A stretch of 64,000 nt of DNA from Hyphomonas sp. GTDB taxonomy: Bacteria > Pseudomonadota > Alphaproteobacteria > Caulobacterales > Hyphomonadaceae. The position numbers were made by a program, and so were the translations under genes. Below, one piece after another: positions 26,344 through 27,495 of this stretch (positions within the stretch are counted from its first letter, which is position 1; each line of letters opens with the position of its first letter). The stretch lies in contig NZ_PNMA01000001.1 in the NCBI RefSeq assembly GCF_013823385.1, positions 62,001-126,000 of the forward strand, read 5' to 3'. The notes beneath the pieces were generated by a model that saw only the letters and a list, made by a program, of their open reading frames with translations, was not told the DNA's origin and made no database searches.

Positions 26344-26832
26344 ATGGGCGCCAACCGGCTCGTCGCCGTCCATATTGACGAAGACACCCTCGGCGCTTCG
26401 GGGCCGGACGCCGAGCATGAGCGCCGCGTCGCCATCTTCGACCTGATCGAGGAAAACACCTTCGGCGTGATCGGCGAGGATCGCGGCCCCTACGTCCTTG
26501 CCCTCAGCCAGCATGAGCGCCGCCTCGTCTTCGCCATCAAGACCGAGCCCGGCGAAGAGGTCCACACCTTCATCCTCTCCCTCTCGCCGTTTCGCGGCGT
26601 GATCCGGGACTATTTCACCATCTGCGACAGCTATTACGAAGCCATCCGCACCTCCACGCCCCACCAGATCGAAGCCATCGACATGGCCCGCCGCGGCATC
26701 CACAATGAAGGCTCCGAGCTTCTGAAGGAGCGCCTGGAAGGCAAGATCGACATCGACTTCCAGACCGCCCGCCGCCTCTTCACCCTCATCTGCGCCCTTC
26801 ACGCCGGCCAGGGCCGCGCGCCTGGGGCCTGA
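26344..26832 (+). CDS. UPF0262 family protein
   Basis: 162 residues from ATG 26344, 4 bases after hisD; starting further upstream would overlap hisD. Family blocks are visible: EHERRVAIFDLIEENTF, LALSQHERRLVFAI, LSLSPFRGVIRDYF, CDSYYEAIRTSTPHQIEAIDMARRG and HNEGSELLKERL. Function unknown; the family is almost confined to alphaproteobacteria and usually lies hisD-UPF0262-phosphatase-infA-maf. Here its last 16 codons are the first copy of a 50-bp direct repeat whose second copy is at 27446-27495, and the gene that should follow (a low-molecular-weight phosphatase) is missing. Confidence 0.92.
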   Translation: MGANRLVAVHIDEDTLGASGPDAEHERRVAIFDLIEENTFGVIGEDRGPYVLALSQHERRLVFAIKTEPGEEVHTFILSLSPFRGVIRDYFTICDSYYEAIRTSTPHQIEAIDMARRGIHNEGSELLKERLEGKIDIDFQTARRLFTLICALHAGQGRAPGA

Positions 26833-26834
26833 TC
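26785..26834. repeat. 50-bp direct repeat, copy 1 (3' end of UPF0262)
   Basis: Starts CTCATCTGCGCCC and runs through the UPF0262 stop. It is identical to copy 2 (27446-27495) over the first 38 bases and matches 48 of 50 overall. It bounds the AT-rich insert on its left. The insert gene's stop codon (26833-26835) begins at its last two bases. Confidence 0.95.
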
Positions 26835-27309
26835 AAGGTTTCCAGGTAAAGAGCCTGAAGTCATTGGCTTCTTTTTTCAGGCTATTTACGTCACCAACAA
26901 AGGAGGGGTCCGCACTGAACAAGCACCTCTCCTGTTGAGGGCGGCAGTCAACTGTGCGCTGAAGCATTTCAGCATGTGTGGTCTTCAAGATTTGCACCGA
27001 GACTTCCCATTGCCTTCTGAGTGTCGAAAATATCGTAATCATCAGTGCGCAATATAAGGCGCAAATAAAGATCATTACACAGAACATAGACACATCACGA
27101 TCCATCTTCAAAGTGAATGCCACTTTATTTGCCATTGGCAAAACAAATGAACCGAAGAATGAAATCGCGGTCAAAATGAAAAGCCATCGCCTGAGTGTGG
27201 TGTTTGACTTTTCCTTGACCAATAGACCTATGGCGTTCAGCCGCTTTCTGGCGGAACAGCTTGCCGCATTACAATAAGCGTAAAAAGCCGCCGTCCCACT
27301 TTTCGTCAT
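26833..27309 (-). CDS. AT-rich orphan gene: two-TM protein, possibly SLATT-like
   Basis: 158 residues from ATG 27309; a GTG at 27333 would add eight. An N-terminal amphipathic stretch with SARKRLNAIG is followed by two membrane helices (about 43-61 RRWLFILTAISFFGSFVLP and 74-96 SMFCVMIFICALYCALMI) and a cytoplasmic tail with several Cys. Helix-RKRL-TM-TM-cytoplasmic helix is the layout of SLATT domains, predicted pore-forming effectors in nucleotide-signalled defence systems. The match is by pattern only, and no SLOG or nucleotidyltransferase partner is present. Base composition is far more AT-rich than its neighbours, indicating transfer. It lies between 50-bp direct repeats. A -35 TTGACG is at plus 27367-27372. 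Confidence 0.55.
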   Translation of the reverse strand: MTKSGTAAFYAYCNAASCSARKRLNAIGLLVKEKSNTTLRRWLFILTAISFFGSFVLPMANKVAFTLKMDRDVSMFCVMIFICALYCALMITIFSTLRRQWEVSVQILKTTHAEMLQRTVDCRPQQERCLFSADPSFVGDVNSLKKEANDFRLFTWKP

Positions 27310-27445
27310 CTCCGATCCCCACCCGTAGCGCACCCTTCTTCTTAAAATCCGTCACTGGGTAAATTCCGTCAAGCATAAGTGGATTCTTCTTCCTGGATGA
27401 TAACTTCCTCCGGTGGGGAGTCTGTCCATCCGGTCCCCATTTAAG

Positions 27446-27495
27446 CTCATCTGCGCCCTTCACGCCGGCCAGGGCCGCGCGCCGGGGGCGTGATC
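27446..27495. repeat. 50-bp direct repeat, copy 2 (3' end of the epimerase gene)
   Basis: Matches copy 1 (26785-26834) at 48 of 50 positions, the first 38 without change. On the minus strand it supplies the last codons of the epimerase gene, ending HAPGARPWPA with the stop at 27460-27462. It marks the right edge of the AT-rich segment. Confidence 0.95.

Follow-up and report, generated by a model that had tools for sequence, protein, structure and literature searches.

A foreign-looking stretch of 611 bp has apparently been gained by a Hyphomonas sp. between two copies of a 50-bp sequence of which three sister genomes have a single copy at this site, a gain that is supported by comparison of the sequences. 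It lies in the window, the whole 64,000-nt stretch of DNA that was analysed, where a UPF0262 gene and a convergent gene of the NAD-dependent epimerase/dehydratase family meet (Table 1). The favoured origin is a one-off homology-anchored capture, through single crossover of a recircularised fragment or one-sided illegitimate recombination, to which a probability of about 45% is given. The mechanism is ordinary and the example unusually clean: a natural case, with its empty site known, in which a short foreign stretch appears to have entered a tightly packed chromosome while breaking no gene. The initial annotation had proposed an insertion of foreign DNA with duplication of a gene's 3' end, and this is borne out by the AT-rich insert together with the empty site in three sisters.

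Table 1. Features of the locus, in window coordinates
Feature	Position	Strand	Remarks
UPF0262 gene	26299..26832 (longest frame; stop 26830-26832)	+	Pfam PF06793, E 8.4e-71
Left repeat copy	26785..26834	+	Holds the UPF0262 3' end; two silent differences (26823, 26829) from the H. polymorpha form
Orphan frame in the insert, 166 aa (GTG start) or 158 aa (ATG start at 27309)	26833..27333	-	Stop straddles the repeat edge
AT-rich insert, 611 bp, 47% GC	26835..27445	.	Three sister genomes lack it at this site
112 bp upstream of the inserted frame	27334..27445	-	Abrupt end at the right repeat
Right repeat copy	27446..27495	+	Holds the 3' end of the epimerase gene
NAD-dependent epimerase/dehydratase family gene	27460..28452	-	Pfam PF01370 E 1.3e-8, PF13460 E 1.1e-8

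Structure of the repeat and the insert

The two repeat copies are 50 nt long and identical at 48 positions (96%), including positions 1-38, as first described and as confirmed by a recount on the sequences; the mismatches fall at positions 39 and 45 (26823 and 26829 in the left copy). Exactly 611 bp separate the copies, and the GC contrast reported at the outset also holds, with 47% inside and 66% in the flanking kilobase on either side. The repeat had been described as the last 50 bases of UPF0262, which is right for 48 of them; the repeat passes the TGA of the gene by 2 bases. Similarly, the stop of the inserted frame does abut the repeat edge, but it straddles that edge, with 1 base in the insert and 2 in the repeat, rather than beginning exactly there. 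The stops of the inserted frame and of UPF0262 thereby stand back to back as TGATCA. From the sequence, 26344 is a more likely start for UPF0262 than 26299, the start of its longest frame.

This arrangement stands alone in the DNA that was scanned. The 26785/27446 pair is the only high-identity direct repeat of at least 28 nt within 6 kb in the 64-kb window, the other family listed being at 74%. Contig C1 (393,264 bp), scanned with exact 15-base seeds for repeats of at least 24 nt at spacings of 60-8000 bp, holds 12 pairs, and only the 26785/27446 pair is clearly AT-rich inside (0.47 against 0.66). A further 980,209 bp, made up of the first 20 kb of contigs C2-C21 and the 36 loci of relatives described below, gave six pairs (28 nt, 85% or more) and no comparable AT-rich insert, the largest drop in GC being 0.07; the repeat scans cover about one fifth of the genome.

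No recombinase and no transposase was recognised when the frames of the insert (166/158 aa and 81 aa on the minus strand, 99 aa on the plus strand) were scanned with Pfam, NCBIfam, PADLOC and PHROGs, each library having been used on some of these frames; the initial annotation had likewise seen no integrase or transposase. Terminal inverted repeats are not evident when the two 40-base ends of the insert are compared by eye, unscored, and a consensus scan of the 112 bp upstream of the inserted frame found no sigma-70-like site. Rfam gave no match in the insert.

Other repeats are present in the window. Units of TGTCCGGA form arrays in steps of about 10 bp at about 29635-29660, 37069-37104 and 44393-44430 (minus), and the array stretches at about 37057-37134 and 44382-44442 are matched in sister genomes; contig C1 holds 34 such units on both strands, where base composition alone would predict about 15, and 10 clusters contain at least two units. 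A palindromic repeat of about 90 nt followed by a T run lies at about 34931-35032, and related copies are scattered over both strands, the majority of those listed being in H. polymorpha PS728.

The inserted frame

The inserted frame has 172 open codons, and 66 of 5000 resamples from a first-order Markov model were at least this long; this is somewhat longer than expected, and the frame is therefore likely, short of certain, to code for a protein. Structure prediction from the single sequence gives two long helices at low confidence (pLDDT 59, pTM 0.31), and hydrophobic stretches can be picked out by eye.

The searches that were made point to no convincing relative of this putative protein. 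Against about 5.8 billion proteins, 18 candidates were returned, none at E 0.01 or better. Besides the window itself, protein searches yielded only weak partial matches, four among 385 genomes of the class and one among 105 of the family. Plasmids gave no match to the protein and phages a single one at E 0.4; the insert DNA matched neither phages nor plasmids. Every Pfam and NCBIfam match to the inserted frames falls under the curated cut-off, and the best PHROGs match stands at E 0.025. Six peptide patterns drawn from the frame, whose reach is limited to close relatives, found no relative in genome contigs or viral contigs.

Several candidates were considered and set aside. A match in a genome from another genus of the family (G498, E 0.004) is taken as chance, and it overlaps a frame that by eye resembles a PIN-domain protein. 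In the same genome, macro-domain-like and PIN-domain-like frames lie adjacent at L156:827-1755, also judged by eye. ThsA1, the best PADLOC match to the 166-aa frame (E 0.0019), is weak and was dropped; it disappears for the reversed 158-aa sequence, which served as one control. A SLATT-type membrane protein was also thought of, and no SLATT model matched at E up to 10, in a search whose HMMER filters drop weak matches.

The empty site and its neighbourhood

The initial annotation had suggested that an empty site be sought in related genomes, and three sister genomes have one, with a single 50-bp copy and the insert absent. A DNA search of 61 genomes with positions 26290-28460 places the UPF0262 and epimerase parts side by side, sharing about 50 bp, in Hyphomonas polymorpha PS728 (G034), Hyphomonas sp. 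34-62-18 (G029) and a third genome, G015; in all three alignments the 50 bp occur once. The right copy agrees with the single copy of these genomes at 50/50, 49/50 and 47/50 positions, respectively. The left copy has two differences from H. polymorpha, both at third codon positions and silent in UPF0262 (CCG to CCT, GCG to GCC), and the two sites at which the copies differ from each other are both among the 12 positions of the left copy nearest the insert. A scan of a collection of genome contigs for the repeat pattern matched three records, once each.

In all three empty-site genomes the 3' ends of UPF0262 and of the convergent epimerase gene overlap by 34 bp. The epimerase stop is at 27460-27462, within the right copy, and both genes are intact in the window because the duplicated 50 bp cover the whole of that overlap.

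Across the genus the epimerase gene adjoins UPF0262 in only 3 of 36 loci (L067-L102), and the downstream neighbour therefore varies within the genus. Besides the three loci with the epimerase, 11 of the 36 (in 10 genomes) have opposing open frames that end no more than 18 bp past the UPF0262 stop or overlap it, a count taken from a mechanical stop-to-stop list in which some frames may be spurious. In G006 and G012 the two opposing stops overlap as CTAG. Opposing frames near the UPF0262 stop are thus common in the genus, so the left edge of the insert looks like an ordinary gene boundary. One genome, G014, has two equal-scoring UPF0262 loci (contigs C69 and C28; L088 and L089); it is listed as 9% contaminated, and the doubling may be an artefact of assembly.

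Search for a possible family of cassettes

It had been suggested that the insert is a minimal cassette mobilised in trans, and that other cargo might be found between copies of the same 50 bp. A 32-base pattern of the repeat, allowing up to 3 mismatches, has matches in 7 of 42 genomes of the genus, and two copies are present only in the genome of the window. This pattern misses diverged relatives, and therefore the UPF0262 end of each relative was compared with its own surrounding DNA. No second copy in direct orientation was found at any of 36 loci in 35 genomes, over 1.8 to 19.4 kb downstream of each (G014 gave two loci; G026, a partial match, and five further members of the genus were left out). 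The best second match per locus has 9 to 14 mismatches of 32, which is presumed to be background. Viral contigs had no match to 27 bases of the repeat, with one degenerate base and otherwise exact.

Within the genome itself, the 32-base pattern occurs only at the two known places; therefore, no resident element with the same sequence is seen. The genome has 15 tyrosine-recombinase matches, 14 of them above the family cut-off, so mobilisation in trans is conceivable. No Cas1 homologue was matched in the genome, which speaks against a casposon. In terms of what defines a site-specific island, the repeat and a single-copy empty site are both present here, while no integrase was seen inside the insert and no other elements at the site. 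The trans-mobilised cassette accordingly finds no support, with 1 of 42 genomes doubled, none of 36 loci doubled and the cargo not found elsewhere in the searches made. Within these searches, there is no sign of a cassette family at this site. In its most elaborate form, the idea would involve a single-gene circle of 661 bp with a 50-bp attachment sequence that copies the end of a gene. A tyrosine recombinase resident in the genome would move this circle in trans, and its insertion would be directed to places where convergent genes overlap at their ends, so that no gene is ever broken; this is very improbable.

Origin of the insert

Three facts call for one account: the repeat ends 2 bp past the UPF0262 stop, the stops of UPF0262 and of the inserted frame abut, and the left copy differs from the right one solely at its inner end. 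In the proposed capture, a linear fragment would have entered the cell from a relative whose UPF0262 gene has the orphan gene directly behind it, stop against stop, with both this donor and its gene order inferred. The ends of the fragment could then have been joined to give a small circle, in which no more than the final 50 bp of UPF0262 remained, and the circle integrated by one crossover; alternatively, the fragment could have undergone homologous recombination on the left and illegitimate joining on the right. Either route would leave the insert between two 50-bp copies, of which the left would show the letters of the donor at its inner end and the right would show those of the recipient at its outer end. 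The left edge would then be a natural gene boundary of the donor, and the right edge alone would be a breakpoint. The end of the repeat 2 bp past the UPF0262 stop would be where homology between the UPF0262 genes of two species naturally ends. The right copy agrees in form with the sister genomes and the left copy differs at its inner end, a pattern that fits capture and consists of two silent differences, which could also have arisen by mutation after the event.

Within a 34-bp convergent overlap nearly any insertion would be expected to break a gene, and duplication of the whole overlap avoids this. The captured stretch may have survived because the 50 bp span the overlap, so that neither gene lost its end. 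Selection alone, with no enzyme that targets gene ends, could thus explain the length and position of the surviving event; we infer this role of selection, as well as the linear or circular intermediate and the crossover. Genes of the ComEC and DprA families are present in the genome, and both families are widespread. A length of 50 bp is short for a RecA-dependent crossover. As for a donor with UPF0262 beside the inserted gene, none was found by DNA in 61 genomes, where the 4 candidates scored per genome gave no match over the insert, nor by protein in the 385 class and 105 family genomes beyond weak partial matches. Import of UPF0262 as a longer tract was considered, as informative sites in four genomes group the gene of this genome with that of Hyphomonas sp. 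34-62-18 by 10 against 1 and 1, compared to 7:8:15 for hisD and 10:9:39 for the epimerase gene; this was dropped, since the grouping shifts along the rest of the window as well (e.g. 12:0:7, 6:25:9 and 9:30:5 in 500-bp bins).

Precedents for both routes exist. In E. coli, a PCR product indicating a duplication was obtained in 56 of 60 clones where one-sided events were sought, and 14 sequenced clones had duplicated 109-950 bp of the homologous end, a result attributed to a circular molecule that integrated by single crossover (PMC3240628). By the account in the same report, one-sided events usually remove DNA of the recipient, most of them with 3-10 bp of microhomology, whereas here DNA is duplicated.

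Two other explanations are serious rivals. A staggered break with fill-in, or template switching, would have copied a target of about 50 nt twice and joined an unrelated fragment without homology or an enzyme of its own, which fits the clean duplication of 50 bp, an insert that stops abruptly on its right side and the fact that terminal inverted repeats are not evident by eye. However, it does not predict that the repeat should end just past the UPF0262 stop or abut the stop of the inserted frame, and the genome has no Ku match, which leaves no indication of classical bacterial end joining; on balance it is unlikely, though the strongest competitor to capture. Somewhat less probable again is a remnant or passenger of a site-specific integrative element that rebuilt the UPF0262 3' end and whose integrase has been lost or acts in trans. 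The locus does resemble attL and attR at a gene 3' end, the rebuilt copy diverges solely at its element-proximal end, and the tyrosine-recombinase matches mentioned above could supply the enzyme; yet no other doubled site was seen in 42 genus genomes or 36 downstream stretches, viral contigs had no near-exact match, the insert has no recognised recombinase and its cargo was not found elsewhere.

The remaining readings are far less probable than either of these. Long and variable target duplications are on record for IS1549 and IS1634 (8-514 bp; PMC2266710), and the genome has two DDE_Tnp_1 genes, so that the insert might derive from a transposon of this kind; this is highly improbable, as the ends of the insert show no inverted repeat by eye (unscored), no transposase was recognised inside it, and the query 26700-27600 matched only this place in the genome. 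It is equally hard to credit that the insert is ancestral and was lost in the sisters. Recombination between the repeats would yield exactly the empty site, but loss would be required in three lineages or their ancestors, and the search turned up nothing related to the inserted frame within the genus. If homology-anchored capture is the true origin, some gains of small orphan genes would be due to such capture rather than to a mobile element, and they would leave a signature that can be searched for: a repeat that ends at a gene stop and has two copies that differ only at the inner end of one of them.

Comparison with known systems

Genomic islands integrate at gene 3' ends by means of tyrosine recombinases, leaving a direct repeat that corresponds to the gene 3' end and a rebuilt target gene. 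The insert described here has the same kind of repeat and a rebuilt gene, but it differs in that no integrase was recognised and no other occupied site was found. Long direct repeats are shared with IS1549 and IS1634 as described in PMC2266710, whereas no transposase was recognised in the insert and terminal inverted repeats are not visible at its ends. The H47 genomic island of E. coli is reported to excise without requiring RecA or any of the recombinases tested, with excision demonstrated by PCR (PMC5426353). It has in common with the insert the flanking direct repeats and the lack of a recombinase of its own, and differs in scale: H47 is 13 kb long with imperfect repeats of 148 and 144 bp that contain four homologous blocks of 11-20 bp (PMC5426353), in contrast to 611 bp and a 48/50 repeat here. 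The closest parallels are single crossover of recircularised DNA and homology-facilitated illegitimate recombination as set out in PMC3240628, in which foreign DNA that brings no recombinase likewise comes to lie at a homologous end. The laboratory duplications of 109-950 bp surround a plasmid, whereas here 50 bp surround one frame in a natural setting; in both, part of the homologous locus is duplicated, as single crossover would bring about (PMC3240628).
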